Of a stretch of 64,000 bases of DNA, positions 4,191-31,109 are shown piece by piece. This DNA is from Eubacteriaceae bacterium. GTDB lineage: Bacteria > Bacillota > Clostridia > Oscillospirales > Acutalibacteraceae. The number at the start of each line of letters is the position of its first letter. Position 1 is the stretch's first letter. A program made the position numbers and the translations under genes. The DNA lies in NCBI GenBank assembly GCA_021770095.1, contig JAETRQ010000005.1, positions 1-64,000 on the forward strand, in the 5' to 3' direction. The notes beneath the pieces were generated by a model. It was not told the origin of the DNA and ran no database searches. It saw only the letters and a program-made list of their open reading frames with translations.

Positions 4191-4231
4191 GGAGTGGTAC
4201 CGAAGAGGTCATAACGGCATGGACTCGAAAT
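4191..4231 (+). pseudogene. 5' half of host tRNA-Ser(CGA), cut in the anticodon loop (left attachment site)
   Basis: GGAGTGG TA CCG aagaggtcataa CGG C ATGGA CTCGAAA T; its acceptor and anticodon stems pair perfectly with the 3' half at 31052-31109. Confidence 0.9.
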
Positions 4232-4315
4232 TTTTTGAAGAGTTGGCTGTTTGCTCCGCTTAAAAAGCCCGTAAAATCAGGAGTTTTCTTCGGTTCGAAA
4301 ATTGAATATTTTGTT

Positions 4316-4337
4316 GTTCTTTCCGTCAGTTCTTTCC
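4316..4337 (+). repeat. Two tandem GTTCTTTCC sites, candidate integrase arm-type sites (left)
   Basis: GTTCTTTCC at 4316-4324 and 4329-4337; further copies at 4535-4543 (inverted), 4556-4564 (inverted), 4609-4617 and 5894-5902. Confidence 0.7.
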
Positions 4338-4372
4338 AAAAGTTTTTGGAAATAATGCGGAATTACATACAC

Positions 4373-4461
4373 GGAGAGTTGTCCGAGTGGTCGAAGGTGC
4401 AGCACTCGAAATGCTGTGTTCCCAAAAGGAACCTAGGGTTCGAATCCCTAACTCTCCGCCA
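4373..4461 (+). tRNA. tRNA-Ser(CGA), intact, element-borne
   Basis: GGAGAGT/ACTCTCC acceptor, CAGCA-CTCGAAA-TGCTG anticodon arm, ttcccaaaaggaa long variable arm, TAGGGTTCGAATCCCTA T-arm, encoded CCA. Confidence 0.95.
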
Positions 4462-4501
4462 AAAAGTCCAGTAAACAAGCGGTTTTCTGGACTTTTCTTT
4501 T
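4462..4501 (+). terminator. Intrinsic terminator downstream of the element tRNA-Ser
   Basis: aaaagtccag...ctggacttttctttttt hairpin followed by T-run. Confidence 0.75.
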
Positions 4502-4605
4502 TTGCCCTTTTGCTCAAAATCGGCTCAAAACTATGGAAAGAACAGCCTGTTTTTTGGAAAGAACAAGGCGATTTCGGGCATTTTGGCGTATTCGAACCGT
4601 AAAAA

Positions 4606-5820
4606 TCAGTTCTTTCCGCCATCGTTTGAAATTTCGGTCCATTTGCTACTAAAATTCACCGATTCGGGAAGTGCCATTCCGCTGACCATTGCCTTTGCCG
4701 AGGACAGCTTTGAAGTGTAGTCAAGGTGAGCATATATGTTAGCGGTGGTAGAAAAATCGCTGTGTCCAAGCCACTCCTGAATTTGTTTCAGCGGTACGCC
4801 GTTCGCAAGAAGCAGACTTGCGCAACTGTGTCTTAAATCGTGAAAACGCATTCTTTTACAGCCGTGCTTTTGGATATACTGTGGGAAATAGCTTGTCAAG
4901 TATTCCGGTCGCATTAAATCTCCCAGCTCGTCTACAAAGACATAACCGTCATATTCGTAGTTATAGCAGTTTCCGCAGACCTTCTTGTTGACCTCTTGCG
5001 CCGCTTTTACTTCTTTGAAGTACTCCGCAAAGCTGCCGACAAGCGGAAGCGTACGCATACTGGACTTTGTTTTGGCAGAGTCCTGTGCGTACATTTTTGT
5101 TTTTCCGTCCACTTGCAGCGATGTGACCGTGTGCCTTATAGTGATTGTGCCACGCTCAAAGTCTATTGCATCCCATTTCAGTCCGCAGACCTCGCCACGA
5201 CGCAAGCCGTAGAAAGCGGCGACTAAAACAGGAAGTTCCAGCTTTGTCCCTTTGACTACTTCAAATAAATGCTGCAGTTCTTCCGCATCAAGGAATACAG
5301 GCTGATAATCATTCTTTTTCGGGCGATCCACTTTCATTGCCACATTCTGCGTAACGAGGTCGGTTTTCATTGCGTATTTCAGCGCCTGATGAATAACGGC
5401 GTGATAGTGAATAACCGAGTTTGGTTTGACCGTTTTCAGCTTTTCGGAATAGAATTGCTGAATGTGTCTCGCCTCCAATCCCTGAAGCGTTAATGCCTTC
5501 TTACGAAAATACGGCTCAATCACCGATTTTACCATTTGCTCGTAAGAGCTGAATGTGGTTGCCTTAACACGCACCTTGACGATTTCCAGCCATTCAAGCA
5601 GATAGTCTGCAAACGGCATATCAGAAGCAAGCTCGCCGACTTCCTGCGGCGGTATAAATTCACTTCTGATTCGCACAAGCTCAGCTTCGGCTTTTCGTTT
5701 GTTGCCCTTTTCGGGCAGTCCAGTGGAAAAGTATTTCACACGGCGTTTTCCGTTGTTGTTATAGTAGCTCAGCACTACATAATAAAAACCTTTTTTAACT
5801 TGTAGGTGTCCTGATACCAT
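4606..5820 (-). CDS. int: Tyrosine recombinase/site-specific integrase
   Basis: AAFYGLRRGEVCGLKWDAIDF ... MRFHDLRHSCASLLLANGVPLKQIQEWLGHSDFSTTANIYAHLDY catalytic motifs. Confidence 0.96.
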   Translation of the reverse strand: MVSGHLQVKKGFYYVVLSYYNNNGKRRVKYFSTGLPEKGNKRKAEAELVRIRSEFIPPQEVGELASDMPFADYLLEWLEIVKVRVKATTFSSYEQMVKSVIEPYFRKKALTLQGLEARHIQQFYSEKLKTVKPNSVIHYHAVIHQALKYAMKTDLVTQNVAMKVDRPKKNDYQPVFLDAEELQHLFEVVKGTKLELPVLVAAFYGLRRGEVCGLKWDAIDFERGTITIRHTVTSLQVDGKTKMYAQDSAKTKSSMRTLPLVGSFAEYFKEVKAAQEVNKKVCGNCYNYEYDGYVFVDELGDLMRPEYLTSYFPQYIQKHGCKRMRFHDLRHSCASLLLANGVPLKQIQEWLGHSDFSTTANIYAHLDYTSKLSSAKAMVSGMALPESVNFSSKWTEISNDGGKN

Positions 5821-5940
5821 TATTTTTAACTCCTTTCATTGTACATCACAGGAAAGACCTACACCGACAAGCCTATTATAGCTTGCCGGCATAGTTCTTT
5901 CCATTCTGCAAAAGTCACTCGCTGTACACTTTGGTTCGAA

Positions 5941-6858
5941 TTAACGGGCGTCTCTGTTGCGTTCTCGCTGGCGTTTCAAAAGCTCCAATCCTTTAAGAAT
6001 ATCTCGTTTGATTTGCTTATCGCTGTAATTTTGCGGAAAGTATTTGCGAAGCTCATCACGCGGCAGTTTGATTTGTTCTTTTTGATTTGGTTTTTCTTCC
6101 GACAAAATAGCGTAAATAGCGTCGGCGGTAAGCAAGCCGTCCTGTGACATTTTCTTCAGCCTGATACTCTGTGCGTGTGACGGTGTGCAGTCGTTCATAT
6201 TGATTGCGTCAAGCAAAGTGAGCTGTTCGTCACGGTCAAGGTAGGAGATTTCAACCGCAGGGTTGAAAGCGATTTTTTTGTCATCTACCATTGAAAGCAG
6301 TTCGGGAATTAAGTAAGTTAAGCGGATATATCTTCGCACTTGGTCTTTGCTTTCACCGGCTTCTTCGGCAACCTTTTCTACACTAAGCAACTTCTCTGCA
6401 ACTTGCACAGAAGTTTTACCTTGGTGCTTTATGGCCTCCAGCTTCATCTTATACGCAAAGGCTTTTTCGCTTGGCAGTATCGTTTCTCTTTGCAAATTTG
6501 CGTCCACCATTGCAATCACAGCCTCATCGTCTGACATTTCGCGGACGATTACAGGCATTGTTTCAATCCCCAGCACCTGACACGCCGCAAGCCTTCTGTG
6601 CCCTGAAATAAGCTCATAGCCGCCGTCGGGCAGAGGTCTGGCAAGCGCCGGAGTTATCGTGCCGACCTTGCGTATACTCTCAATCATTCGCTCCATTTCT
6701 TCGTTATTCAATATCTTAAACGGATGATTCTTAAAAGGGTGAAGTTCGCCAAGAGGTATGTTCTTTATACGCTCAAGCTTTGCATCGTCACGCTCCGCCT
6801 GCGTTGTAAATAGATCGTCCAGCGTCGGTAAAGTAAAATCTGATTTTCGTTTTGTCAT
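5941..6858 (-). CDS. ParB/RepB/Spo0J family partition protein
   Basis: IPLGELHPFKNHPFKI... GYELISGHRRLAACQVLG... ANLQRETILPSEKAFAYKMKLEA. Confidence 0.92.
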   Translation of the reverse strand: MTKRKSDFTLPTLDDLFTTQAERDDAKLERIKNIPLGELHPFKNHPFKILNNEEMERMIESIRKVGTITPALARPLPDGGYELISGHRRLAACQVLGIETMPVIVREMSDDEAVIAMVDANLQRETILPSEKAFAYKMKLEAIKHQGKTSVQVAEKLLSVEKVAEEAGESKDQVRRYIRLTYLIPELLSMVDDKKIAFNPAVEISYLDRDEQLTLLDAINMNDCTPSHAQSIRLKKMSQDGLLTADAIYAILSEEKPNQKEQIKLPRDELRKYFPQNYSDKQIKRDILKGLELLKRQRERNRDAR

Positions 6859-8240
6859 CGTTCGTATCCTCTCTTTCTTGATTTATTAAGTCCGAAATAT
6901 CGGCTTCGCATATTCTCCTCAATGAGAATATTTTCTTTGACTTTGGGGTTATCCTCAATAATCCTTGCCGCTGTTTTCTTGTCCTTTCGAAGCTGAGCAA
7001 GAGCCTTTGTGCAGTCATCTCGCTTGGCTACAAGCTTTGCTTTTTCGTCGGGATCGTGGCAAGAATCAATATCTCGGTAGAGCATTTTGCGGTAATCCGA
7101 TATGAGTTTCATTTCCGAATCAGCGTTTTTTATAAATGCTTCCACAGAAGAAATATCGGTCAGGTGATTGCCGCAAATGAGCTGTACCTGTGCAGTGTGG
7201 CGGTCAAGCCAACGGCAGGCTTCACGCATTTCGGGCGATAGCGGCTTGTGTTTTTTGTTTTTAGGCAGCACGCCCAGCAGATATAAATATCTGAAATACA
7301 ACGCTTTAAGACCAGTGATTTTTTTGGCGGTTTTTAAATTGCCTTTAACTGAATAAGCCTTTTGAATTGTTACACCGAGGCTCTTTTTTTCGGTAAACTC
7401 ATAGTATAAGCGGTAAGCTTCCTGAGAGTTGTTTCGCAAAGTATCTCTCATTCGGTCATAGATTGCATCTCGGTCATAGGCTTCTCCCAAGCGGTACAAA
7501 CGAGTTGCTTTCTTGCTGTTGACAGAGCGAATGGTGGCGTACTTATGATATGGATTAAGGTCGATTACATATCCGAGCTGTTTCATAACATAGGTGAAAG
7601 CTTTGGGATTTGTACTCATCGTAAGCGCTTTATCTATCGCCTCACGCATTAAATTGTATGGGGTAGGTTCGCCGTTCTCTTCTGCAAAGTACAGCTTGCG
7701 TGGCGTCTTTCCTGTGGGATTTTTAATGACCGTCAAACCGTTTTCTTTGCAAAGCTCATCGGAAATACTGCGCAGTTTCCAGTATGCTCCCTCGTTGCAG
7801 TTAAACTTCTTACCGTTCCACATATTCACCGAATTGATGACCAAATGATTGTGATATGTGCCGGTGTTAAAGTGCGTAGCGACCAGCACTTGATACTGGT
7901 CGCCCCACATTCTTTTGGCAAGCTCAACGCCCAGCTTGTGTGCAAGTTGCGGTGTAACTTCGCCTGTCTTAAAGCTCTGATATGCGTGATAAGCCACATT
8001 ACCGACCGTCTTATCAAAGTGTTCTTGTACCGCATTCATCTCGACAAAAGCTGTTTCTGCTGTGCAGTTTACGCCTGTCACGTACATTGCTTTTTCTTCA
8101 GCGATTACGGTTTTTCGCTCGTCGCTTGCGTAGTGAAGTGCCTTGCAAATATCGCTGTAGATCGTCTTGTCCGGGTTTGCCGCATAGCTCAAAACACGGT
8201 TGACGCTGTCTGTTACAGCCCATATTTTTGTTACTGCCAC
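6855..8240 (-). CDS. Relaxase/mobilization nuclease domain protein (MobP-type)
   Basis: VAYHAYQSFKTGEVTPQLAHKLGVELAKRMWGDQYQVLVATHFNTGTYHNHLVINSVN relaxase His motif. Confidence 0.92.
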   Translation of the reverse strand: MAVTKIWAVTDSVNRVLSYAANPDKTIYSDICKALHYASDERKTVIAEEKAMYVTGVNCTAETAFVEMNAVQEHFDKTVGNVAYHAYQSFKTGEVTPQLAHKLGVELAKRMWGDQYQVLVATHFNTGTYHNHLVINSVNMWNGKKFNCNEGAYWKLRSISDELCKENGLTVIKNPTGKTPRKLYFAEENGEPTPYNLMREAIDKALTMSTNPKAFTYVMKQLGYVIDLNPYHKYATIRSVNSKKATRLYRLGEAYDRDAIYDRMRDTLRNNSQEAYRLYYEFTEKKSLGVTIQKAYSVKGNLKTAKKITGLKALYFRYLYLLGVLPKNKKHKPLSPEMREACRWLDRHTAQVQLICGNHLTDISSVEAFIKNADSEMKLISDYRKMLYRDIDSCHDPDEKAKLVAKRDDCTKALAQLRKDKKTAARIIEDNPKVKENILIEENMRSRYFGLNKSRKRGYER

Positions 8241-8545
8241 GACGAATCACTTGCACTTTCCGGCTCACCGATTGAGTGATAAGCTTTCAAAAATTTGCTC
8301 ACAACATCGTTGAAACTTGCATTTACATTGACTTCTGAAAGCGACTTCCAATTGTCACGAAGCGAGGTCAAACCTCGGTAAGCTTCGTAAAATTCCTGTG
8401 GCAAGGTTGCCTGAACTTCCTTGCCAAGACCAAGTTTTCTAAGGTAAGCAGAGAGCGAAAGTCCGCATTTTTTAGCGGCAGTTTCCATTTTTCTTTTCTC
8501 TCCCTCAGTCACTCGAATATTGATTGCGGTTGTTCTTTGTCTCAT
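8231..8545 (-). CDS. MobC-like plasmid mobilization relaxosome protein
   Basis: RTTAINIRVTEGEKRKMETAAKKCGLSLSAYLRKLGLG; overlaps the relaxase start. Confidence 0.85.
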   Translation of the reverse strand: MRQRTTAINIRVTEGEKRKMETAAKKCGLSLSAYLRKLGLGKEVQATLPQEFYEAYRGLTSLRDNWKSLSEVNVNASFNDVVSKFLKAYHSIGEPESASDSSWQ

Positions 8546-8584
8546 ATATTTTCATTCCTTTCTCTGTATAATCGGGGTTACAGG

Positions 8585-8615
8585 GGCGGCAAGTCCCTTT
8601 CGGCAATTTGCCGCC
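8585..8615. other. Inverted repeat upstream of the mob genes, candidate oriT region
   Basis: GGCGGCAA (8585-8592) / TTGCCGCC (8608-8615) just upstream of the mobC start. Confidence 0.4.
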
Positions 8616-8740
8616 GGTTTTGTGGGCTTCAAAGGCAACACAAAACCTATGCTCGCTATCCTTATGGATTGGCATTACCTGTATAGCCATATATCCACTT
8701 TCTCAAAAAGTGACGATAGTGACGGCTGTGACGGCTTTTC

Positions 8741-9766
8741 CTATATAGAGAATTTATTGTCATCGCCGTCATTGCCGTCATTCTTTTTTAAGTAAATCAG
8801 TCGGCTCGTGCCGGTGCGTTTTGTTTTATATTCGATGCCTTGCGGCTGAAAAACTTCCGAAGAAAATCGGGCAAGCATTTTGGTCACGACATTCGGTGTA
8901 ACCTCGGTTTCGTTGACCTGCGTTAAAAGCTGCGTTGCCGTGCCTCGCCATTCTTTTACTTCCGATACATAATCAACCAGCCGGAAAATAAACTTCGGAA
9001 TTTCTTCACGGTGAATATCCTCCATATCCTTTCGCTCGACCAACTCCCACAAGTGACTGCGGTTGTCAAACTTCAAGGTCAGCTCCTGATATTCAATATC
9101 TCGACCTGTGGCAAGCAGCGTTCCGGTTTCATTGGCACGGCTGCGCTTCAAAACAAAATTCGTATCTGCCGCACCTGTGATACCTGTGGAGCCTGACACC
9201 TCGTTGAACGGATCGCTGACATCTTTCAGCTTCCTGACGTGATGAACAACCATAACAGCGATGCTGTACTTGTCCGAAATATTTTTCAGTGCCGTTACAT
9301 CGTCGTAGTCGCCTGCGTACATTCCGTTTTTTCCGCCGGTGCTTTTTGAATCTCGCACCTTTTGAAAGGTGTCGATAATGACAAGCTTTGTTTTCGGAAA
9401 GTCGGAAAGATACTGCTCAATTTGCTGTTCTAAGCCGTTGCCGATTTGAAAACTCGTTGTGGCAATTCGAAGTTCGGCCGGTGCTTCGTCTGCGATTTGA
9501 TACAGGCGGCTTTGTATTCGTGCGTAAGTATCCTCCAAGCAGAGATAAAGTACATCGCTCTTGTAGGTTTCAAATTCCCACACGGGTTGTCCTCTCGCCA
9601 CTTGAACGCCGAGCCAAAGCATAAGCCAGCTCTTGCCAATTTTGCTTGAACCTGAAAGCACGCTGAGCCCTTGCGGTATCAAGCCGTCAACCACAAATAA
9701 GGTTTTCCTTATCGGCGTTGACAGCAGTGTGTCCGCATCGATTGTTTTCAGCTTTTCAACTTGCAT
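8741..9766 (-). CDS. AAA/RecA-like ATPase, RepA-helicase type
   Basis: LSVLSGSSKIGKSWLMLWLGVQVARG Walker A; LVIIDTFQKVRD Walker B; IAVMVVHHVRK. Confidence 0.87.
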   Translation of the reverse strand: MQVEKLKTIDADTLLSTPIRKTLFVVDGLIPQGLSVLSGSSKIGKSWLMLWLGVQVARGQPVWEFETYKSDVLYLCLEDTYARIQSRLYQIADEAPAELRIATTSFQIGNGLEQQIEQYLSDFPKTKLVIIDTFQKVRDSKSTGGKNGMYAGDYDDVTALKNISDKYSIAVMVVHHVRKLKDVSDPFNEVSGSTGITGAADTNFVLKRSRANETGTLLATGRDIEYQELTLKFDNRSHLWELVERKDMEDIHREEIPKFIFRLVDYVSEVKEWRGTATQLLTQVNETEVTPNVVTKMLARFSSEVFQPQGIEYKTKRTGTSRLIYLKKNDGNDGDDNKFSI

Positions 9767-9983: not shown

Positions 9984-10003
9984 CTTCTTAACCTCCTTTG
10001 TGA

Positions 10004-10031
10004 GAAAAAAAGCTGTACGGTGTGTACAGCT
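10004..10031 (-). terminator. Terminator/attenuator-like hairpin in the minus-strand operon leader
   Basis: Minus strand: AGCTGTAC-acacc-GTACAGCT followed by TTTTTTT, about 20 nt before the HTH ORF start. Confidence 0.55.
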
Positions 10032-12139: not shown

Positions 12140-12148
12140 GTTTCGGAG

Positions 12149-14395: not shown

Positions 14396-15226
14396 ATGTT
14401 CATTATGACAATAATTGAAGCCATAAAAGAAGTTTTAAAATTCGAACCGAAAGGGCTTTCTTCAGTAGAAATATATCAGAGAATAATTGATCAAAATCTA
14501 TATCAGTTTGGTGCCAAAAATCCGGTTGGTGTTGTAAATGGCGAAATAAGACGACATTGTATTGGACTTGATTTTCCTACTGCATATCCGGTTAAGCATT
14601 TTGCAATAGCAGGAAAAGAAGGAAAAAAATTAAAATTTATTGTTTGTGAAAATAATAAGTCGGGAAAGACTATTAAACAATCACAAAACGTAATTGATGA
14701 CAATACAGAGTTTTTGCCTGAGGAGAAAATTGCAAACGCTATAGATGAACATCTGCAGCAAATCAAACAGCAATTATTGGATAATATAATGTCAAATCAT
14801 CCTGATTTTTTTGAGCAGTTAGTGGTTGAGCTTTTGCTGAAAATGGGATATGGATACGATAAAAAATCCGGAATTGTAACCGGGGGTTCTCACGATAATG
14901 GTATTGATGGAATAATCAGTGAAGACAAATTAGGTCTTGATCTTATATACATACAAGCAAAGCGTTATTCGAACGCCAACAAAGTTGGCAGAAAAGAATT
15001 ACAAGCCTTTATTGGGGCCATGGGGCATATTCAAAAAGGTGTATTTATAACAACATCTTCATACACTAAAGAAGCATTAACTTTTGCTACTCAACAACAG
15101 CAAAAAAGTGTAAAACTTATCGATGGCGAATCATTGACTGACTATATGGTCAAGTACGGAATTGGTGTTGAAAGCGTTAAAACCTTCAATATTTATAAAA
15201 TCAATTCAGACTATTTTCGAGAGTGA
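14396..15226 (+). CDS. Mrr-like restriction endonuclease with N-terminal HARE-HTH-like domain
   Basis: GLSSVEIYQRIIDQNLYQFGAKNPVGVVNGEIRRH; GGSHDNGIDGIISEDKLGLDLIYIQAKRY (PD-(D/E)xK Mrr motif). Confidence 0.85.
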   Translation: MFIMTIIEAIKEVLKFEPKGLSSVEIYQRIIDQNLYQFGAKNPVGVVNGEIRRHCIGLDFPTAYPVKHFAIAGKEGKKLKFIVCENNKSGKTIKQSQNVIDDNTEFLPEEKIANAIDEHLQQIKQQLLDNIMSNHPDFFEQLVVELLLKMGYGYDKKSGIVTGGSHDNGIDGIISEDKLGLDLIYIQAKRYSNANKVGRKELQAFIGAMGHIQKGVFITTSSYTKEALTFATQQQQKSVKLIDGESLTDYMVKYGIGVESVKTFNIYKINSDYFRE

Positions 15227-20243: not shown

Positions 20244-20397
20244 ACAAGCAATTGTCGAGAAAATGATTACCTTTATCGAAAAGAAAGAGCGTGAACTGCA
20301 AGCAAACAAAATGAATGCAGACAACCGTGCAAAGAACGACATAATAAAATCGATTATGGACGAATTGGAGCGTGAAACGACAAATGAGAATAACTAA
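20236..20397 (+). CDS. Small 53-aa protein overlapping both neighbours, missed by the ORF track
   Basis: Hand translation MNEQAIVEKMITFIEKKERELQANKMNADNRAKNDIIKSIMDELERETTNENN*; start overlaps the helicase stop, stop overlaps the ATPase start. Confidence 0.6.
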   Translation: MNEQAIVEKMITFIEKKERELQANKMNADNRAKNDIIKSIMDELERETTNENN

Positions 20398-22342
20398 TAT
20401 TGAATTTGAAAATTTCCGCAACTTTAGAGACCATGGTGAAATCAAGTGTTCTACTGATGGCAAGGTAACTATTATATACGGAAAAAACGGTGATGGTAAA
20501 ACCACCCTGCACCAGCTGTTCCAGTGGGTGTTCTACGGACAAGTTCATTTTAACAAGACTACTACAGACCGCCTCTATAATCTTCAGTATGAAAGTGAAT
20601 GCTCTTTTGGCGATACATTCCAAGTTATGGGCTGTATTGACTTTGAGCATTCTGGTGTTAAATATTCATTAAAGCGTACCTATACATATAAAAAAGGATT
20701 GAACGATTCTGAAAAGATAGCTGAAGATGTTGTCCTCAATTATATGAATGAAGATCACGATTGGCGTAGAATCGATAAACCGAAGGAAACTATTGAGAAA
20801 TTACTTCCCTCCGGATTGTCCGACTACTTCTTCTTCGATGGCGAAAGTATGATTGCTGACCTCCGTGTTAAGGGAAAGGACTCTGCCGGAAAACTTCGCA
20901 AGGCACTGTACTCCATGTTTGACCTTGATGTGATTGAGTCCGCACTGGATCATATCGGTGACACAAAACTGAAGACTACTGTTCTTGGAAAGCTTTATTT
21001 GAGCAAGGGCACTATTTCCAGTGGAAGTAAAATCGCTGCGGTCAAAACCAATATAGAAAATGCACAAGCGTTGATTGAAAAACACGAAAAGGCTCTCGAA
21101 GAAGCCAAGAAGAAAAAAGCTGAGTGCCAAGCTCTGATTCAGAGTGTATCCGAGCAAATTGGTGGTTATAAATCCAAGGCAGATTACGAACATCAGCGTA
21201 AGAAACTCAAAGCACAACGCGATGCTTTCATTAAAAGTTCTACAGATGCACAAGCACGATTTGGCGACGATGTCCTAGATATGTTTCCAAAATTGCTCAT
21301 TTCCAAGGCAGTACTTGATGCAAAGAAAAAGATTCAGTTAAAAATTGAACAGGACAAGCTCCCTGAAGGTGTATCCAAAAAACTCATTTCCCATCTTCTT
21401 GCCGAAAAGACAACAGAGTGTGTATGTGGTCGAGCGTTAGGCGAAGAAGAAAAGGCTTACATTCGCCACTATCTGGATATTCTTCCGCCTAAATCTTTTG
21501 CAAGCCTATATCAGGATTTTACAAAGACCGCAAACTTCTGGGGCAAGGGCTACGATAAAACAAAAATCGAAGCCTATATTCTTGATGTGCTTAACTACAA
21601 CGAGTTAGCAGCTGATTGCGATAAACGCATTCGTGAACTCGATGCAGCCGAAAAGAAGAGTCCTGACATTGAAGATCTTATTGTTGCAAGGCAGAAGGCT
21701 GAAATTGCTATAGTAGAACTGGATGCTACCATCGTTGGCCTTGAAACTGAAATTAAGAAGTGCGAACTTTACAGAAATAAGCAAATGAAAGACTTTGATG
21801 AGCTTACTCGAGGTAACGCCGAAGGTGAAAAGGTTCTTACCAAGATCCGTATCATGGAGCAGGTTGCTGCATATTTTGCAAAACGCTTGGAAGAAGAGTC
21901 TATTGCTTACAGCCAGAGATTACAGACGAACATCCAGAGCCTTATTGATGGAATGCTCACAAGTAAGCGTCACGTTACTGTTAGTCCAGAGTTTTCTGTT
22001 CGAGTTACCGATAGTTTTGATGATGAGTCAAAATCGGAAGGTCAATTCGCGGTTGTATCTTTTGCATATATTGGAGGTATTCTCAAAATGCTTCAAAGCG
22101 AAGATCATCTTTCTTCCAAAGAGTATCCTCTTGTACTTGATGGTCCTTTCTCTAAACTTGATCCTGATCAACGTCAAAATGTAGTGGATATGATTCCTCA
22201 ATTTGCACCTCAAGTTATCCTTTTCTCTAAAGATGATTTGCATGAGGTGTTTCATGCCGAAAATATCGGCCGAGTATGGACGATTGTAAGTAACGAAGAA
22301 AAAAATATTGCAAAAATTGAGGAGGGACACTTATGGAAATAA
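20384..22342 (+). CDS. SMC/Rad50-like ATPase, second DndD-like protein
   Basis: MRITNIEFENFRNFRDHG, IIYGKNGDGKTTLHQLFQWVFYG Walker A, YPLVLDGPFSKLDPDQRQNV Walker B, central CVCGRAL; track start GTG 20372. Confidence 0.83.
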   Translation: MRITNIEFENFRNFRDHGEIKCSTDGKVTIIYGKNGDGKTTLHQLFQWVFYGQVHFNKTTTDRLYNLQYESECSFGDTFQVMGCIDFEHSGVKYSLKRTYTYKKGLNDSEKIAEDVVLNYMNEDHDWRRIDKPKETIEKLLPSGLSDYFFFDGESMIADLRVKGKDSAGKLRKALYSMFDLDVIESALDHIGDTKLKTTVLGKLYLSKGTISSGSKIAAVKTNIENAQALIEKHEKALEEAKKKKAECQALIQSVSEQIGGYKSKADYEHQRKKLKAQRDAFIKSSTDAQARFGDDVLDMFPKLLISKAVLDAKKKIQLKIEQDKLPEGVSKKLISHLLAEKTTECVCGRALGEEEKAYIRHYLDILPPKSFASLYQDFTKTANFWGKGYDKTKIEAYILDVLNYNELAADCDKRIRELDAAEKKSPDIEDLIVARQKAEIAIVELDATIVGLETEIKKCELYRNKQMKDFDELTRGNAEGEKVLTKIRIMEQVAAYFAKRLEEESIAYSQRLQTNIQSLIDGMLTSKRHVTVSPEFSVRVTDSFDDESKSEGQFAVVSFAYIGGILKMLQSEDHLSSKEYPLVLDGPFSKLDPDQRQNVVDMIPQFAPQVILFSKDDLHEVFHAENIGRVWTIVSNEEKNIAKIEEGHLWK

Positions 22343-22848
22343 CCACCGACATTAGTCTCCGAGGAACTGCTTGGAATACGGCAATTGAAAAGTTGGGTTG
22401 TATATTCAAAACTCGTACAAACTATATGATTTATATGCTGGCGTTATCTATTGGCATTATGTATGACAAAAGAGAAGATAGACTCCCTGTCGAAGACGGA
22501 GAGGAAGTAAGATCTGTACCTCGTAATGTCATCCGCAATAATGACCAAGGCAAACTTGATTTTATGTTTCAGGCTGCAATCTTATCCACGACAACAGAAG
22601 AATTTTCCGAAGAAGAAAGACTGGATTTTGCTTTCGGTGATAAAAATGATGAGAAGATAGGATTTAAGAGAATCGATTTCTTAACACAGTTTGCAAACTT
22701 CGGTGTAACAAAACTGATGGAACAAATAGGAGAAACACCTATTGAATCTATGGAGAGCATTAAGAATTTCTTGGTATCTACTGTTGAAGGACGAAACTTG
22801 GAGATTGACGCATTGCCGGATGATATCCTTTTAGAAGGAGATTATTAA
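22333..22848 (+). CDS. Small protein, possibly DndE-like
   Basis: TRTNYMIYMLALSIGIMYDKRED; overlaps the ATPase stop, so probably translationally coupled. Confidence 0.45.
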   Translation: MEITTDISLRGTAWNTAIEKLGCIFKTRTNYMIYMLALSIGIMYDKREDRLPVEDGEEVRSVPRNVIRNNDQGKLDFMFQAAILSTTTEEFSEEERLDFAFGDKNDEKIGFKRIDFLTQFANFGVTKLMEQIGETPIESMESIKNFLVSTVEGRNLEIDALPDDILLEGDY

Positions 22849-22878
22849 CTTGCAAACACTCTAAAAATCACGAGAATA

Positions 22879-22907
22879 TTGACATTAAGCGTCGAATGCG
22901 GTATACT
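22879..22907 (+). promoter_or_regulatory. Promoter of the dndBCDE operon
   Basis: TTGACA (22879-22884) - 17 nt - TATACT (22902-22907), 46 nt before the dndB ATG. Confidence 0.8.
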
Positions 22908-22934
22908 TAAGTATGTACTTAAGTATACCGCATT
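22895..22934. promoter_or_regulatory. Perfect palindromic operator overlapping the -10 box
   Basis: AATGCGGTATACTTAAGTA-TG-TACTTAAGTATACCGCATT; 19-bp arms, 2-nt spacer. Confidence 0.85.
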
Positions 22935-22953
22935 GTTATTTATGAGGTGTGTT

Positions 22954-24018
22954 ATGAACTTTTCTTATCGTTTTCCGGCAGTTAAAGGTATTCAAGCCGG
23001 TAGAGAATACTATATTTCTATGGTTCCGCTGAAGCTGTTGTCTCGCCTTTTCCCGGCTGAGGAAGAAATCGTTCTGCCTGAACATAGAGCGCAACGAAGA
23101 ATCAATGAAGCCCGCATCCCGGAGATTAAGAACTATATTCTCGATAACAGGGATACCTATGTGTTTTCTGCCCTTTCTGCCTCCATTGATGGTGAGTTCA
23201 AATTCACTCCATATATGGATACAGATGCAGGTATTTTTGAAGTTGATATGGGTTCGATTTTTTTGATTAACGATGGGCAACACCGCAAGGCAGCTATCGA
23301 ATCAGCTATGAAAGAAGATCCGTCTTTGGAAAAGGAAACGATTTCTATCGTTTTCTTCAGCGACGAAGGATTAGCTCGTAGTCAGCAGATGTTTACTGAC
23401 CTTAACAAACACGCAGTTAAAACTTCTAATTCCCTCGCCACACTTTATGATTCAAGAGATGAAATAGCAGTAGCTACGAAGCATGTTATAGATACTATTC
23501 CTTTTTTTAAAAGATATACAGACAAGGAAAGAGATATCCTTGGTAAGAATTCCTCAAGTTTATTTACGCTAAACATGATTTATAAAGCAAACCAAAAGAT
23601 AATGCATAGCGAAAAATGCTCAAGTTCTGATGCGGAGTTTTTACTTTCTTATTGGCAGCTTGTTTCTGACAATATTGTTGAATGGCAGGAAGTCCTCAAT
23701 AAGTCTCTCACCAAAAAGGCCTTGCGTGAAAATTATATAGTGACATTGGCTATTACTATTAGCGCGTTTGGAAAGCTAGGACGATTCTTTTTTGATAATG
23801 ATAATTATAATATGCAGAAATATTTGCCGAAACTTCAACAGATTGATTGGCTTCGCTCCAACAATATGTGGATAGGCAGGACAATCCGAGACAACGGCAA
23901 GGTGTTGAATAGCGAAGAAGCTATATCTCTCACTTGCGCTGTAATCAAACGAGAGATTGGTCTGCCCCTTACAAAAGAGGAAAAACAAAAAGAGAAACAG
24001 ATTTCGGAGAAGATGTAG
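22954..24018 (+). CDS. dndB: DNA sulfur modification protein DndB (DGQHR domain)
   Basis: IFLINDGQHRKAAIESAMKEDPSL ... MFTDLNKHAVKTSNSLATLYDSRD; MNFSYRFPAVKGIQAGREYY start. Confidence 0.9.
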   Translation: MNFSYRFPAVKGIQAGREYYISMVPLKLLSRLFPAEEEIVLPEHRAQRRINEARIPEIKNYILDNRDTYVFSALSASIDGEFKFTPYMDTDAGIFEVDMGSIFLINDGQHRKAAIESAMKEDPSLEKETISIVFFSDEGLARSQQMFTDLNKHAVKTSNSLATLYDSRDEIAVATKHVIDTIPFFKRYTDKERDILGKNSSSLFTLNMIYKANQKIMHSEKCSSSDAEFLLSYWQLVSDNIVEWQEVLNKSLTKKALRENYIVTLAITISAFGKLGRFFFDNDNYNMQKYLPKLQQIDWLRSNNMWIGRTIRDNGKVLNSEEAISLTCAVIKREIGLPLTKEEKQKEKQISEKM

Positions 24019-24019
24019 T

Positions 24020-25393
24020 ATGGCTTATATAGGAGAATTTAAAGTATATGAGGATATAATTCAAGAGATGTCCGTTGTATATCAACACGACAAGAGACCG
24101 TGGATGATTGGCTTTAGTGGAGGTAAAGACTCTACTCTTTTGTGCTGTCTTGTTATGGAAATGCTACAGCGTCTTCCTGTAGAAAAAAGAAATAAAACCG
24201 TGTATATCGTTTCATCAGATACTATGGTTGAAAATCCAATTGTCAGGGATTATATGCATCGTATGTCAGATATGATCAACAATGTCGGTGCGGAACTTAA
24301 TGTCAAAGCAGATATTATTTACCCTAAAGTTGAGGACTCGTTCTGGTGTAAAGTTATAGGTTTGGGATATCCTACGCCGGAACCTCCTGGATTCAGATGG
24401 TGTACAGAGCGTTTAAAGATACATCCTATGAACGCTTATACGCTAGAAACTATAAAGAATAATGGTGAGGTCATATTACTGCTAGGCGTCCGCAAAGCAG
24501 AAAGCACCTACAGAGCTAATAATATTCGTTCTAGAGAAATCGAAGGAAAACTTCTTGTTCCTCATAATGACATAGAAAATGCTTATGTCTATAATCCGTT
24601 AACGGAAATTCCGAACGAAGATGTGTGGAAATTTCTTCTCAAAGGGGACGCCATCTCTCCTTGGGGTTCTGATAATAAATATCTTTTTTCTCTTTATCAA
24701 GGTGAAAACCTCGGCGAAGAGCAAAGTGTTATTGGTGAAATCGATAAAGATAAAATACCTGTTACAGGCAATTCTCGTTTTGGTTGTTGGATTTGCACTA
24801 TGGTTAAAGAAGATAAGTCATTAAAAGCCTTTATTGATAAAGGTGAAAAATGGCTTATTCCGTTGCGTGATTATCGTAACTGGATGCTTGAAATGCGCTC
24901 AACTCCAGGTGCACGAGAATACAAAAGAAGAAACGGTGCTATGTATAGAAAGGCGGACGGTAATCTTGGCGAAGGACCCTTTACAATGGAAACCCGACAG
25001 GAAATGCTTCGTCGGTTGTTACAGCTGGAGGTTGACACAGGATTATCCCTTATCACGATTGAAGAACTGAAATATATAGATTTCTTGTGGGACAGCGAAG
25101 GAGACTTAACTCGTCGCAAGCTGGTTGATATCTACTACGAAACAACCGGAAAACGACTGCCTTGGGATCAATATAAAGTATCTGTATTTCCCCAAGAAGT
25201 GATTGACGAAATCCATAAATTGTGCGAAGAGAATCAAATTGAATTTGAACTGATTTCAAAGCTTATTATCGAAATTGAGGCAAACAAGAATTATACCAAG
25301 AGTTCTATGGTTACCAAAGCGTTCGATAGAATTTTGAACCAAGGCTGGTTGCATTTTGACAGTATTGAGAAGGGGTTAAACAATGAAAATTAA
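24020..25393 (+). CDS. dndC: DNA phosphorothioation sulfurtransferase DndC (PAPS reductase family)
   Basis: WMIGFSGGKDSTLLCCLVMEML, RWCTERLKIHPMNAY, SRFGCWICTMVKEDKSLKAFID. Confidence 0.94.
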   Translation: MAYIGEFKVYEDIIQEMSVVYQHDKRPWMIGFSGGKDSTLLCCLVMEMLQRLPVEKRNKTVYIVSSDTMVENPIVRDYMHRMSDMINNVGAELNVKADIIYPKVEDSFWCKVIGLGYPTPEPPGFRWCTERLKIHPMNAYTLETIKNNGEVILLLGVRKAESTYRANNIRSREIEGKLLVPHNDIENAYVYNPLTEIPNEDVWKFLLKGDAISPWGSDNKYLFSLYQGENLGEEQSVIGEIDKDKIPVTGNSRFGCWICTMVKEDKSLKAFIDKGEKWLIPLRDYRNWMLEMRSTPGAREYKRRNGAMYRKADGNLGEGPFTMETRQEMLRRLLQLEVDTGLSLITIEELKYIDFLWDSEGDLTRRKLVDIYYETTGKRLPWDQYKVSVFPQEVIDEIHKLCEENQIEFELISKLIIEIEANKNYTKSSMVTKAFDRILNQGWLHFDSIEKGLNNEN

Positions 25394-27470
25394 TAATATC
25401 ATTTTGCACAACTTCGGCTCATACGAAGGAACTACAAATTTTGATACTAGACCTTGTGATGGCAGAAATATTGTGTTGATTGGTGGAAAAAACGGTGCCG
25501 GCAAAACTACATTATTCACGGCAATGCGACTCTGCTTATACGGCTACAAAAGTATGGGTTACAAAAATCCGAATTCGTTCTACAACCGTGCTGTTGTTAA
25601 GTTAGTAAACAACACCGCAAAGATAACCAAACCTGCTACTGCCTTTGTTACGATGTGCGTTGAACTTAATAACGGTCAGGGCATGGACTCTTTTTTGTTA
25701 ACCCGTAAATGGGAACTGAATGAGTCGCTCATAGAAACTTTTTCTGTTTTAAAAAATGGAGCGGACTTATCAGAAGATGAAATTGCCGATTTTGAGAAAT
25801 ATGTCGTTTCGTTAATTCCGCCCGAGTTGTTTAATTTATACTTTTTTGACGGTGAAAAAATTGCCAATTTCTTTATGGATGAAGGTAGCAACACCCGAAT
25901 AAAAGAAGCTTTTCTTACGCTTTGTGGCTATGATACTTTCGATATTATGCGTAAAAATTTCAAGAGAATAAGAGCAGGAATCCCTACTTCGGCTCCTGCA
26001 CTTGATGAGTATATTGTAGCTAAAGATGCCCTTGCATCTGCCGAATCATTGTATCACGATTTGACCGATAGGTTGAAGGCTTGCGTTGATGCAATTGCGG
26101 ATTGTGAGGCTACCCTTGATGCGGAAGAGAAAGAATATCATCAAAAAGGCGGTATCACAGAAGAAGAATGGAATCAGAAACTCTATACTCTAAAGGAAGA
26201 AGAAAAAAAGCGTGAAACATACAATGCCTTGCTCAAAAAATGGGCAAATGATGTAATTCCCTTCATTATGCTTCGCAAACAAATTCTCGCACTGAAGGCA
26301 CAGATAGAGAACGAAAACCAGGCATTAAAGTATACCTATTTCTGCGAAGTTCTTAACTCTCCGGCAGTCCAAACCTTGGTGAAAGACAAACTAGCAGAGA
26401 TTGACTCTGCTGCATTTGCTGACTTTGGAACGGAAAAAGAACCTATCCTTAACCTTTCTTTTGAACAGAATTCCCTTATTCTGGCACAAATCAATACGAT
26501 TTTATCATTTGAACAGGATAAAGTAGAAAAATGCAAAAAAGCAATTAAACGTTCTTTGAACCTTACTGCAAAGATTAGAAAAGAGATTGAAAGTAGTAGC
26601 ATAACAAGTGTTCAGGAATATATGAAACGAAGAGCACAGCTTTTTGAAGAAAAGAGCGCATTGCTCGTTCAGCGTGTTGAATTAGAACAACAACTTGTTG
26701 CTCAGAAAGAAGCCTTGACATTGGCAGAACAACAGTTAGGTAAAGTTCAAACTCGCCTTGAGGAAGAATTGAAGAAAGCATCTATTAACGATATTTCCGC
26801 TAGAGCCATTGTTATGCTCGATAAATTGCAAGAAATTCTTTATCGCCGTCAAATTGATAAGGTAGAAAACTGCTTCCGCAAAGAAATTCGTACCTTGATG
26901 CGAAAAACGCATTTTATCGACGATATATACATTGACGATAATTTCAACACCCATATCTATCGTACAGAGAAAGTATCAATAGAAAAAATTCGCAAAGCAT
27001 TAAAAACAAATACCGAAGAACAGCTTTTAGCATTTTGGGGTGCTAAAGCTATGCAAACACTGTATAAAAAGGCAAATTCAAATGATTACAATGATATGTG
27101 CAAATACTTTGAATCAGTTGATATCAAATCTCTATCATTGCAAATAGAAATTGATAAGGCATCTTTATCTAACGGAGAAAAACAAATTTTTATTATGGCA
27201 CTATACTACTCTCTTGTTAGTTTGTGCAATCATGAATTACCTTTTGTAATCGACACCCCTTTTGCTCGAATTGATACAGAACACCGACACAATATATCAA
27301 AGCACTTTTTCAGCGAATTAAAAGGGCAAGTATTTATTCTTTCGACAAATGAGGAAATCAACAGTTCTCATGTTCAAATTCTTAAAGATAAAATTGCTGC
27401 TACATATATGCTTGAAAACTCGGACAACAAGCGTACGGTTGTAGTGAAGAATTCTTATTTCGAGGTGTAG
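25383..27470 (+). CDS. dndD: DNA sulfur modification protein DndD (SMC-like ATPase)
   Basis: MKINNIILHNFGSYEGTTNFDT, LIGGKNGAGKTTLFTAMRLCLYG, LYFFDGEKIANFF, FVIDTPFARIDTEHRHNISKHFF. Confidence 0.94.
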   Translation: MKINNIILHNFGSYEGTTNFDTRPCDGRNIVLIGGKNGAGKTTLFTAMRLCLYGYKSMGYKNPNSFYNRAVVKLVNNTAKITKPATAFVTMCVELNNGQGMDSFLLTRKWELNESLIETFSVLKNGADLSEDEIADFEKYVVSLIPPELFNLYFFDGEKIANFFMDEGSNTRIKEAFLTLCGYDTFDIMRKNFKRIRAGIPTSAPALDEYIVAKDALASAESLYHDLTDRLKACVDAIADCEATLDAEEKEYHQKGGITEEEWNQKLYTLKEEEKKRETYNALLKKWANDVIPFIMLRKQILALKAQIENENQALKYTYFCEVLNSPAVQTLVKDKLAEIDSAAFADFGTEKEPILNLSFEQNSLILAQINTILSFEQDKVEKCKKAIKRSLNLTAKIRKEIESSSITSVQEYMKRRAQLFEEKSALLVQRVELEQQLVAQKEALTLAEQQLGKVQTRLEEELKKASINDISARAIVMLDKLQEILYRRQIDKVENCFRKEIRTLMRKTHFIDDIYIDDNFNTHIYRTEKVSIEKIRKALKTNTEEQLLAFWGAKAMQTLYKKANSNDYNDMCKYFESVDIKSLSLQIEIDKASLSNGEKQIFIMALYYSLVSLCNHELPFVIDTPFARIDTEHRHNISKHFFSELKGQVFILSTNEEINSSHVQILKDKIAATYMLENSDNKRTVVVKNSYFEV

Positions 27471-27471
27471 T

Positions 27472-27849
27472 ATGATATTTAAAATAAGAACATCAAAAAA
27501 GACAATGAGTATCTTTGAGGAGATAGCGGCAAGCACTAATTATGCACCTTTTATTCTATCAAAACTATCAATTTCGTTATCTATCAAAAGTGAAAAACCT
27601 CTTGAAGATGCAGATTTTAAAACAGATACCTATGGCTTAGAATTAAACCGACAGACAATTACTGCGGAGTGGGACGGTTTGTATAAATGTCTTATTTCTA
27701 TGGCAGAAAAGCGTCACATTGAAGATGATGAATATTTTCAAAAGTATCTAAAAGCACATCTCGATAGAGGTGCAAATATGCTATATAGCGAATTTAAGTA
27801 TAATAAAGACTTTATTCTAGCACTAATAAACGAGAAAAAGGGTATATAA
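27472..27849 (+). CDS. dndE: DNA sulfur modification protein DndE
   Basis: 125 aa directly after dndD: MIFKIRTSKKTMSIFEEIAASTNYAPFILSKLSISLSIKS. Confidence 0.82.
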   Translation: MIFKIRTSKKTMSIFEEIAASTNYAPFILSKLSISLSIKSEKPLEDADFKTDTYGLELNRQTITAEWDGLYKCLISMAEKRHIEDDEYFQKYLKAHLDRGANMLYSEFKYNKDFILALINEKKGI

Positions 27850-27861
27850 AGGAGAATTAGG

Positions 27862-29746
27862 ATGTCAAACATAAAGGGAACTGTAACAACATTGCGCCAA
27901 TTCCTGTTTAACGTTGAATCTGAAGTTAAAACTGAAGTAAACGGAATAAAATACCCAATTATTTATTTCAAAAAAGACAGAATTTTATCTGTCCCAGACT
28001 ATCAAAGAGAAATCCGTTGGCAAAAAGAAACTTTGTTCTCGCTGATGAATGATATTTCTCGTGGCTCAAAATTTTTAGGAAATATAATTCTATCTTCATT
28101 CGGAGAAAAAGATTTTGAAATAATAGATGGTCAGCAACGTTTAGTTTCGCTTAATATGTTAATTACATACATAAAGTCTCACTATGCAGAACAAATTACT
28201 GACATTGACGAACTTGTCACAATCAATGTCAATTGTTTTGACAAATTTTCCGTATTTCGAGAGGCTGATTATACTTTAAGAAATGTAGATGAATCAATTC
28301 GAGAAGATGTAAAAAAGAGCGACAAGCTTGGACAAATTAAAATACTAAGCGAATTATATTCCTCTATTAGTGAGGAAAAAATTTTAGATACCGTTGCAAA
28401 AGCTGAATCGTTTTTGGAAAATCTAAAAAAATGCACAATAAATGTTATAGTGTCAGACGATGAAGATATGAAAATAAGTACAGAGTACTATATTGATGTG
28501 AACTTGAAAGGTATTAAGTTAGATACCGAAGATATTTTTAAAGGGTATTTATTTTCGCAAGATTCTTCTAAAGAAATCCGAGATTATTGGGTTGAACTCA
28601 AAGAATCTTGGATGAAGTTTAACGAACGATGCAATTGCAAGCCTGAAAAAAGCGTTTATTCATTAACCAAAATACTCGAGCATTACATTTACTGTCATGT
28701 GTTGAGCAAACCAGAATATAAAGATGTTTCAATCAATGAAAAATTCACTCTTGACTCTCCCTGTGAAGTTAATGGCACTAAATACTACCTTGGTGATCAT
28801 GTCATTAAGGTTATTAGAAATAATACCTACATGAAGGAAGTTTTAGTAGGTTCCAAAGAATACATTGACTGTTTAACCGAAATAATTGCGGCAGATGGTG
28901 GTGCTCCAGGTTGCATAAGGGATGGTTGTGCCAAAAATACTCATCTTGAAGTATTATCTTTCTATTTGTGATGGCAAAGCAAAGAAAGCAACTTGCAAAA
29001 ATTTGTATGCTATATATTTTTATAATGTTCTATTCATGCTTTTTGGTGATAAAAAGTCTGATGCAGAAAACATCAAAAGAATCTCCAGAAGTACCGAATA
29101 TTATCCGGAAGTGGTTAAAGCAATTAAAAATTTCTTCGAAGATGGAAATATATCTGAGTCACGACAAATCGCTATTGCAAAATGGAACAGTAATTATGAA
29201 AACGAAGCTTTACAATATAAATGTAAATCGTTGGCTACCATTTATAACTATTTTACAATAAATAATAATTCAGTAGAGATTTCATCAAGTGACGATGTTT
29301 ATAATTTTTTAAGTGATGAGGATGTCTACAATATTGAGCATTTTATAGTAAATGGTTCCGGAAGTACTACTTATGTAGATGGTAAAGATAACTATGAATT
29401 GCCTGACAGTGTCAAAAAGTATAGTGCATATATCTTCAACTTTATTTTTGTCCCCAAAAGCATTAACAATGATATTTTCAAGAACTATTCCGTTCGCACA
29501 AAAATGGAGTTGTTATCTAAATCCAATCGTACTTCTGAAATAAAGTGTGAATATTCAAAAATGATTATAGATATAGTTAAAGATATGTTTGCTGACGAAG
29601 TAACAATTACTGATTTGAATGATTCAGAACAAAAAGAACTAGATAAATATTGGTTAGTAACATTTAAAAATGAGTATTCTCGTTTCACTTCAAGGGTAAT
29701 TGACAAATTATTAGATCATTTTTCAAATACCCACACAGATAAATAG
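27862..29746 (+). pseudogene. DUF262/DUF1524-like protein (GmrSD/SspE-type architecture), split by a frameshift near 28960-28971
   Basis: ORF 27862-28971: LSVPDYQREIRWQKETLFSLMNDI, FEIIDGQQRLVSLNML; ORF 28922-29746 in another frame: YNIEHFIVN ... NFIFVPKSINNDIFKNYSVRTKMELL. Confidence 0.8.
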
Positions 29747-29758
29747 TCTTTAAGCAAT

Positions 29759-29796
29759 AAATCACAACCGTTTTGCTAATCTACGGTTGTGATTTT
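29759..29796. terminator. Bidirectional terminator between the dnd operon and tnpV
   Basis: aaatcacaaccgt ... acggttgtgattt hairpin between convergent genes. Confidence 0.75.
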
Positions 29797-29799
29797 CAA

Positions 29800-30042
29800 T
29801 TATATGCAATTTATTTCTTTTACGACAATCTCAGTTGCTCTACTACGAGTATTATTCATCCTCCTCACCCATGCCATTTGGTCGGCAGCTTTGAGTTGTT
29901 CGGTCACATATCGTTTGTGCCTTAATGCCCACACGCCGATATTACCCGTTTCTTTTTCCGCCGGTAAAGCTAGGTTCGGCAGTAGATAATCGCCTTGTTG
30001 CGTGTATGTACCGCCGAGTTGTTCAAATAATGTGTCAGTCAT
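29800..30042 (-). CDS. TnpV-like transposon-encoded protein
   Basis: MTDTLFEQLGGTYTQQGDYLLPNLALPAEKETGNIGVWALRHKRYVTEQ. Confidence 0.75.
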   Translation of the reverse strand: MTDTLFEQLGGTYTQQGDYLLPNLALPAEKETGNIGVWALRHKRYVTEQLKAADQMAWVRRMNNTRSRATEIVVKEINCI

Positions 30043-30198
30043 AGTAAAAACCTCCTTTGCACTTATATTGTACAAAGGGGGCTGCGTAAAGTCGAATGTG
30101 CGATTTATGAATTTGCATATATCGCCAGTGCCAAAAAATACAGCGAATATTTCCAAACTTGTGCCACTTTTTACAGCGAACATAGCGAATATTCACTC

Positions 30199-30780
30199 TT
30201 ATGTTTTTAATCCTCGTATCACTTGCCAACGAGGGAATTCTTGAAGCACTCGGATATGCCAATCGGATTTTCGGGTGATAGTGCGAAAGTATTTTGAGCA
30301 AAAGAATTCTATTAAATAGACTTTCGGAATGTGATTCATATTGTTTCGCTTAAACGCTTTAAGATGTCCTTTCCTGCACCAATCATTTATTGACGTTGTA
30401 CCGTAACCAATTACTTTTGATATTTCGGTCGCAGTCAGCACATCAGGATATTGTGCAAAAAGTTCCGTGTAATACAGCTTCATATTTTCAAGAACCTGTT
30501 CGGGTACTTCGGTTTTCATTTTCACTGTATAGTTCCCCTTGTACCACCCAGCCGGTGCTGAATAGGATTCGGGAAATACTTTTCTCTTTTCAAGATATGT
30601 AATAACATCGGCCTTTTTGATTTTGTAACAGCGAGTTTTCTTGCCTGTGTATTCACACGGTATCTTTCCGCTGCGAAGCAGATACAAAGCCGTTGATTTG
30701 CTGATGTGGCAGATTTGATAGAGTTGGTCTTTGGTAATAATATCGGGAATCAAATCCCAGTTGATTGCGGTTTCATTCAT
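30199..30780 (-). CDS. Double helix-turn-helix protein, possible recombination directionality factor
   Basis: ITKDQLYQICHISKSTALYLLRSGKIPCEYTGKKTRCYKIKKADVITYL and TATEISKVIGYGTTSINDWCRKGHLKAF. Confidence 0.7.
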   Translation of the reverse strand: MNETAINWDLIPDIITKDQLYQICHISKSTALYLLRSGKIPCEYTGKKTRCYKIKKADVITYLEKRKVFPESYSAPAGWYKGNYTVKMKTEVPEQVLENMKLYYTELFAQYPDVLTATEISKVIGYGTTSINDWCRKGHLKAFKRNNMNHIPKVYLIEFFCSKYFRTITRKSDWHIRVLQEFPRWQVIRGLKT

Positions 30781-30853
30781 AGCAATACACCTCGTAAATA
30801 TTTTTGTCGGTGTTGGTTTTCCCGTGTATTGCCGTTGTTGATGTGTTTATTCT

Positions 30854-30895
30854 GTTCTTTCCGCAGTTCTTTCCAAAATAGTGCCTGTTCTTTCC
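30854..30895 (+). repeat. Three GTTCTTTCC sites, candidate integrase arm-type sites (right)
   Basis: GTTCTTTCC at 30854-30862, 30866-30874 and 30887-30895. Confidence 0.7.
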
Positions 30896-31051
30896 GAAAA
30901 CAGCGAAAATGCCGTTATTCGAACTTTCCTTTATTTATCGGGATTTCAGCGGCACAACCGTCAAAAAGCCTTTAATATCAAGCATTTTCGGCGAATACGA
31001 AGTATCCCGAAACTGCCTTCAAAAATCACTAAACAGCCATTAACCCATAAA

Positions 31052-31109
31052 ACTCGAAATCCATCGTGTGAGCAATCACCCGTGGGTTCAAATCCCACCC
31101 ACTCCGCCA
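31052..31109 (+). pseudogene. 3' half of host tRNA-Ser(CGA) (right attachment site)
   Basis: ACTCGAAA TCCAT ... GTGGG TTCAAAT CCCAC CCACTCC G CCA; pairs with the 5' half at 4191-4231. Confidence 0.9.

Follow-up and report, generated by a model that had tools for sequence, protein, structure and literature searches.

The closest described systems are found among actinobacteriophages with tRNA-dependent lysogeny (Fionnbharth, LeBron, Gaia and others), which integrate through cores of 8-17 bp without rebuilding the target transfer RNA (tRNA) gene and require a cognate phage-encoded tRNA (Guerrero-Bustamante & Hatfull 2024; PMC10865867). The targets of these phages are Lys(TTT), Ile2(CAT) or Leu(CAA) tRNA genes, and the tRNA carried by Fionnbharth has a strong promoter of its own and lies outside the attachment site of the phage, attP (PMC10865867). 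A possible further case is the Lactobacillus johnsonii prophage Lj965, which is reported to leave no rebuilt tRNA and to carry a cognate tRNA (PMC10865867). In addition, prophage-like sequences of S. meliloti are said to substitute tRNA genes (PMC11476347). Here, we analyzed a 64,000-nucleotide stretch of the genome of an Eubacteriaceae bacterium of the order Oscillospirales (positions 1 to 64,000 of contig JAETRQ010000005.1, GenBank assembly GCA_021770095.1; hereafter the window), in which a mobile element of about 26.8 kb interrupts a tRNA-Ser(CGA) gene.

Our analysis makes it highly likely that the gene was split by a mobilizable element which carries a replacement, and that the replacements are themselves serially re-targeted by further elements.

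Splitting of a tRNA-Ser(CGA) gene by the element

An original prediction, made from the letters of the window, held that a tRNA-Ser(CGA) gene is cut in its anticodon loop by a mobile element that does not restore it and supplies a complete tRNA of different sequence instead. The chromosomal 5' half (positions 4191 to 4231, + strand) ends in the anticodon loop, and the chromosomal 3' half, CCA included, lies at positions 31052 to 31109 on the same strand. Each half contains a copy of the 9-bp attachment core ACTCGAAAT, composed of the 7-nt anticodon loop and its closing A-T pair; the left core occupies positions 4223 to 4231 (+) and its repeat, the right core, positions 31052 to 31060 (+). As predicted, the two halves pair perfectly (7/7 pairs in the acceptor stem and 5/5 in the anticodon stem) and recombination of the 9-bp repeats restores one tRNA, since the in silico join of positions 4191-4231 and 31061-31109 yields a 90-nt gene that ARAGORN calls as tRNA-Ser(CGA).

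Identity at the attachment core extends over 9 bp only, so that no tRNA is rebuilt on integration. In agreement with the expectation that the 3' half is not restored at the junction, the left junction continues into an unrelated leader, and the rebuilt tRNA typical of a standard island at a tRNA site is present at neither junction. The locus combines a tyrosine integrase, a tRNA-gene host attachment site (attB) and a core too short for tRNA rebuilding. The element splits the tRNA-Ser(CGA) gene in its anticodon loop and extends from the core at position 4223 to position 31060, over about 26.8 kb.

Unoccupied sites were identified in nine congeners, in which an intact tRNA-Ser(CGA) gene lies directly beside hisF-hisH homologues and matches both window halves contiguously; in five of them (G011, G069, G105, G112 and G028) the 3' half is 97-100% identical to that of the window. 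Neither the carried tRNA nor its leader was found at any of the nine empty sites. The prediction had named two observations that would speak against it, namely a carried tRNA present without the element or halves that are not contiguous, and the nine congeners show the opposite in both respects. These nine empty sites, together with the same anatomy in dozens of relatives, exclude a chance arrangement.

The carried tRNA-Ser(CGA) and the left end of the element

The complete tRNA-Ser(CGA) announced by the prediction was detected by both ARAGORN and Rfam at positions 4373 to 4461 (+). It encodes its CCA end, lies 141 bp past the core in the same orientation as the split target, and is 100% identical to the tRNA of eight other elements. 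It also contains, at position 4404, a copy of the core repeat that the prediction had overlooked: the window has exactly three copies of ACTCGAAAT, all on the + strand (4223, 4404 and 31052). Among the 40 tRNA hits of the assembly, the carried tRNA is the sole intact tRNA-Ser(CGA), accompanied by tRNA-Ser(UGA), (GCU) and (GGA). When compared with the native tRNAs sampled, the carried tRNA shows at most 70% identity, and the rejoined tRNA of the window reaches 99% with the intact tRNAs of three congeners. Given the empty sites and the sole intact gene, target destruction plus complementation, the interpretation originally put forward, is still the best reading of the sequence, with the carried gene presumably complementing the loss.

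Another explanation would be a standard island next to a native tandem pair of tRNA-Ser(CGA) genes, one of which was broken by an unrelated event. Tandem tRNA duplicates do exist (a Leu(CAG) pair at L282 is an example), but the carried tRNA resembles the native congener tRNAs far less (at most 70%) than the tRNAs of other elements (100%), and the leader-tRNA-integrase module recurs in many genera. Native tandem duplication is refuted by the nine empty sites with one tRNA each, and we give this explanation practically no credence.

The leader, that is the left end of the element (positions 4232 to 4372, +), harbors an A/T-rich hairpin (AAAGCCC..AGGAGTTTT) and arm-type repeats, and lacks a sigma-70 promoter. 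The repeats are two copies of GTTCTTTCC (4316 and 4329, within positions 4316 to 4337, +) which are putative arm-type integrase sites; three more copies are present, one at 4609 and two inverted ones at 4535 and 4556. Behind the carried tRNA, a terminator-like inverted repeat, AAAAGTCCAG..CTGGACTTTT, was read from the sequence at positions 4462 to 4496 (+), its loop exceeding the limit of the scanner.

It should be noted that, in a comparison of the window leader (4232-4372) with 32 non-redundant leaders from relatives, many contain at a fixed place a CCGTTTYGTCCRC-like 13-mer whose complement, GTGGTCATAACGG, lies in the D-region of the split 5' half; an AAAACCC..GGGTTTT hairpin is also shared. 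This complementarity is in position-specific excess across leaders, and the per-locus duplex energies of the 13-mer with the dead 5' half are no better than those of shuffles. We claim no function for a pairing of leader and dead half, the duplex energies not being significant; the shared 13-mer and hairpin may be the eroded remains of a tRNA 3' end with its terminator, or else an RNA occupying the dead half.

A family of elements across Oscillospirales

To place the window element among its relatives, we compared 80 related integrases (58-100% identity), whose group-naming titles point to Oscillospiraceae or other Clostridia. An intact tRNA-Ser(CGA) is found 44-336 bp past the integrase stop in 57 of the 80, with another core copy 100-200 bp upstream that is nearly always the end of a 5' tRNA half. 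Both halves could be located in G119, G120 and G134, where they lie 26.2, 19.6 and 15.5 kb apart and pair 7/7 and 5/5. For the isolate Flavonifractor sp. An10 (G128), the 5' half reads GCAGCGG...GCTGA, and its matching 3' half, TCAGT...CCGCTGC, was located at a distance of about 102 kb; two or more integrases lie in the interval. Full pairing has been lost between the orphan halves of Ruminococcus sp. zg-924 (G133).

In addition, 394 genomes of the order were surveyed with a simple two-core pattern, using the reversed pattern as a control. The pattern matched 28 of these genomes, in 22 genera, against about 4 control-pattern matches. Twenty loci were fetched from the survey (window included), and in 18 of them the repeat has an intact tRNA-Ser(CGA) next to it.

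The relatives include some isolates, but many are metagenome-assembled genomes, which weighs against our account of the family. This would also favor mis-assembly or a chimeric bin as the origin of the arrangement. The window, however, lies inside a single 216-kb contig, and the same layout occurs in the cultured isolates Flavonifractor sp. An82 and An10, Pseudoruminococcus massiliensis and Ruminococcus sp. zg-924, which makes an artifact extremely improbable.

Three loci (L283, L284 and L300) have a split half and a tRNA-Ser(CGA) with no related integrase within about 1.3 kb, and transposase, GmrSD-like or Fic-like genes instead; these are probably decayed elements that have retained the replacement tRNA. 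As for other isotypes, an order-wide repeat search for Leu(CAG) gave one match (L282), a plain tRNA duplication, and generality based on this locus was rejected because it is a Leu(CAG) tandem pair. Separately, a related integrase (54%) was found beside a tRNA-Leu(CAG) 5' half, which is followed after about 170 bp by a complete tRNA-Leu(CAG) of different sequence (L065/L253; G055:C3:1-3000). An exact pattern did not find the corresponding 3' half in G055, and from its sequence the locus is a possible second isotype using the same mode.

Nesting, tandem insertion and integrase phylogeny

Several members of the family have two to four 5' halves in an array ahead of the intact tRNA (for example G119, G121, G122, G126, G018 and G021). 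In G119, the inner 5' half pairs with a 3' half behind which, at a distance of 176 bp, comes a second integrase (57% identity); in G128 and G145, 3' halves lie directly ahead of integrases, and eight integrases of the collection have a 3' half behind them instead of a whole tRNA. A tandem junction was identified at L129, where the core links the right end of a window-like element (HTH_17 protein 97% identical) with the left end of a relative at 81%. Since it has the same anticodon loop as the split gene, the carried tRNA is itself a target. Read from these sequences, the arrangements show that later elements enter either the carried tRNA (nesting) or the junction (tandem), each apparently replacing the sole intact tRNA-Ser(CGA), and the arrays of dead 5' halves form a readable record of past insertions.

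The split targets vary far more than the carried tRNA. Eight different target halves, with differing acceptor strands, D-arms and anticodon stems, have been split by elements whose integrases share at least 96% identity with that of the window, and with one exception these elements carry the same tRNA or a one-base variant. The carried tRNA of the window is 100% and 98% conserved where the integrases are only 83% and 59% identical (L166 and L189), which argues for selection on the carried tRNA. All targets share just the anticodon loop, which supports the view that carriage of a whole tRNA frees the element from matching host stems.

These data also bear on the possibility that insertion is tolerated through tRNA-Ser(CGA) redundancy, the carried tRNA being a passenger or serving the UCG-richer genes of the element. 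UCG is rarer in the flanking open reading frames (ORFs) than in those of the element (3.5 and 7.1 per 1000 codons, respectively). The tRNA-Ser(UGA), which is present in the assembly, may also read UCG; the replacement may then be useful rather than essential, a second point that counts against the account favored here. Redundancy nevertheless appears unlikely to us, because the carried tRNA is intact, nearly unchanged across diverged integrases, always cognate to the split gene and always in the same place, and because dead halves pile up while one intact tRNA persists.

The integrase tree unites the members that replace Ser(CGA), together with the nested ones, in a single clade (39 rows, support 99/97), with one outlier apart, and the integrases located beside rebuilt Met and Arg tRNAs fall outside this clade. 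Three of the outgroup integrases (two at Met(CAT), one at Arg(ACG)) have at the other end of their element an identity block running from the anticodon loop to CCA, exact over 45 bp in two cases and 44/45 in one. This topology suggests that a single integrase clade made the switch from rebuilding to replacing the tRNA. A locus with a distant integrase (28%), L296 (G436:C11), has two stacked 5' halves before a tRNA-Ser(CGA) and a 78-bp spacer, and may represent an independent origin of the same mode.

Promoter analysis and proposed mechanism

Promoters were scanned in 53 loci by sigma-70 consensus matching only (at least 10/12), with shuffled sequences as expectation. The window has only one sigma-70-like site on the relevant strand, the promoter of the split target at positions 4138 to 4166 (+; TTGACA-17-TAAAAT, 11/12, with an extended -10), which is the probable read-through promoter of the carried tRNA. 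Upstream of the outermost half, 36 of the 53 loci have a site scoring at least 10/12, against 1.6 expected, and this consensus scan found none between the inner core and the carried tRNA in the 53 leaders, against 0.7 expected. Such a site is also lacking in nine of ten right ends, which would lie upstream of the carried tRNA in the circular form. The carried tRNA is thus probably read from the promoter of the tRNA gene that was destroyed.

In our account, the integrase acts on a 9-bp attP core, ACTCGAAAT, and on the identical anticodon loop in the tRNA-Ser(CGA) gene of the host; the sequence shows that, because attP has no 3' tRNA half, integration cuts the target gene in two, and that a complete tRNA-Ser(CGA) is carried as part of the attachment module. 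We propose that this carried tRNA, promoterless in itself, is probably switched on by integration, with the native promoter reading through the dead 5' half and the leader, and RNase P and the terminator-like hairpin would define its ends. If the loop is required and a stem match is not, one element could enter hosts with very different tRNA-Ser sequences. That this holds family-wide, with a promoterless tRNA inside attP, the promoter of the destroyed tRNA driving it and integration itself acting as the switch, is a generalization toward which the sequences incline us, with less assurance than for the basic account of splitting and replacement. If it is true, the free circle would be silent and a correct insertion self-complementing; the host's sole UCG-specific tRNA would repeatedly become a mobile-element gene; and each newcomer would inherit the same promoter and leave a fossil array of dead halves.

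Further points speak against read-through. A conserved weak leader hairpin (AAAACCC..GGGTTTT) might stop it, in the predicted fold of the complete transcript the carried tRNA may be caught in mispairing with the dead 5' half, and -10-like hexamers occur in 25 of 57 leaders (a raw count, with no null expectation), so that a weak own promoter is possible. The hexamers, the hairpin as a potential insulator from upstream transcription, and the strong promoter of the Fionnbharth tRNA (PMC10865867) are consistent with a replacement tRNA that has its own promoter in the leader or element and lies behind the core incidentally, as in Fionnbharth. This alternative has some standing but is the less likely one, as sites of at least 10/12 were found in 0/53 leaders and upstream of the outermost split target in 36/53, and the carried tRNA is always co-directional with the target and close behind it. 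We retain read-through from the promoter of the split gene as the preferred reading.

Gene content of the element

The carried tRNA is convergent with a gene encoding a 404 amino acid tyrosine integrase (positions 4606 to 5820, - strand; Pfam Phage_integrase, 9.9e-28). On the same strand follow a ParB-like protein (5941 to 6858), which adjoins the integrase in most relatives, a MobA/VirD2-type relaxase (6855 to 8240; Pfam Relaxase, 2.3e-38), an MbpA/MobA-like mobilization accessory protein (8231 to 8545; match below the curated cut-off) and an AAA_25 ATPase (RepA-like; 8741 to 9766; domain match). Domain matches on the + strand between positions 14396 and 29746 identified a cargo of an Mrr-type endonuclease, PbeA-/PbeC-like proteins, DndB, DndC, DndD and DndE (DNA phosphorothioation) and a GmrSD-N/DUF262 protein; this combination of PbeA/PbeC-like, Dnd, DUF262-type and Mrr-type defence genes, recorded at positions 18192-29746, is thus present on a mobilizable element. 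The right end encodes an HTH_17/excisionase-like protein (30199 to 30780, -), conserved at the right end in relatives and a candidate recombination directionality factor, and has three GTTCTTTCC repeats (30854 to 30895, +) as putative arm-type sites.

No VirB4- or TraG-type match that would indicate a conjugation apparatus was found among the ORFs scanned, and no phage structural genes, as expected of a temperate phage, among the 20 main ORFs scanned. With an integrase, a relaxase and no conjugation apparatus seen in these ORFs, the gene content of the 26.8-kb segment fits an integrative and mobilizable element with defence cargo. A phage origin was rejected on the absence of phage genes among the scanned ORFs. 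An IMG/VR scan recovered just two integrases at about 40%, plus five that matched weakly. In INPHARED, 'Bacteriophage sp.' faecal scaffolds with integrases at 55-57% have the same tRNA module and are unannotated fragments. One of these records, human faecal 'Bacteriophage sp.' MT836946.1 (L313, position 3644 of the reverse complement), has HTH_17-type genes and right-end-like sequence joined at CTCGAAA to a leader, a tRNA-Ser(CGA) and an integrase (56%); this attP-like junction, although filed as phage, represents a circle after excision or else a copy in tandem.

Comparison with known systems

With Islander-type tRNA-targeting islands, integrative conjugative elements and prophages, the family shares crossover in the anticodon loop by a tyrosine integrase (PMC4383910). 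Those elements bring in the complete 3' half (about 45 bp) and so restore the tRNA gene of the host (PMC4383910), whereas the Ser-replacing clade does not; the outgroup integrases found here act in the Islander manner at Met(CAT) and Arg(ACG) tRNAs. An integrase and a relaxase with no evident conjugation apparatus, and accretion by repeated integration, are shared with integrative and mobilizable elements (PMC5704250). However, in usual accretion the attachment site is regenerated (PMC5704250), while in the present family every insertion destroys one tRNA gene and brings in its successor.

The tRNA-dependent lysogeny of actinophages comes closest, with a tyrosine integrase, an attB in the anticodon region, a short core, a carried cognate tRNA and related integrases that differ in mode. 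The present case differs in that the element encodes a relaxase and belongs to Oscillospirales, the target is Ser(CGA), the tRNA lies in the attachment module without a promoter of its own, and insertions are serially nested; Lj965, for its part, is a prophage. By this analogy, the principle is known from phages and the element appears to work like tRNA-dependent lysogeny, yet no lysogeny is involved and the promoter arrangement is a different one. The original prediction had insertion and replacement right, and had not seen the stacking, the lack of an own promoter, the single family-wide origin or the phage precedent.

The open-licence literature gave no match for tRNA-dependent integration in mobilizable elements, in Oscillospirales, with the tRNA in the attachment module or with serial nesting. 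What appears to be new is a relaxase-encoding, defence-loaded family, a promoterless tRNA in the attachment module, the use of carried tRNAs as targets, and a switch made in one clade. A core translation gene of these bacteria can thus be replaced repeatedly by mobile-element copies, and tRNA catalogues compiled from such genomes contain element genes alongside those of the host. Compared with the phage systems, the family takes tRNA-dependent integration beyond actinophages, to elements that are conjugatively mobilizable and occur across a gut-bacterial order, and shows a possible escape from the need to match host tRNA stems.

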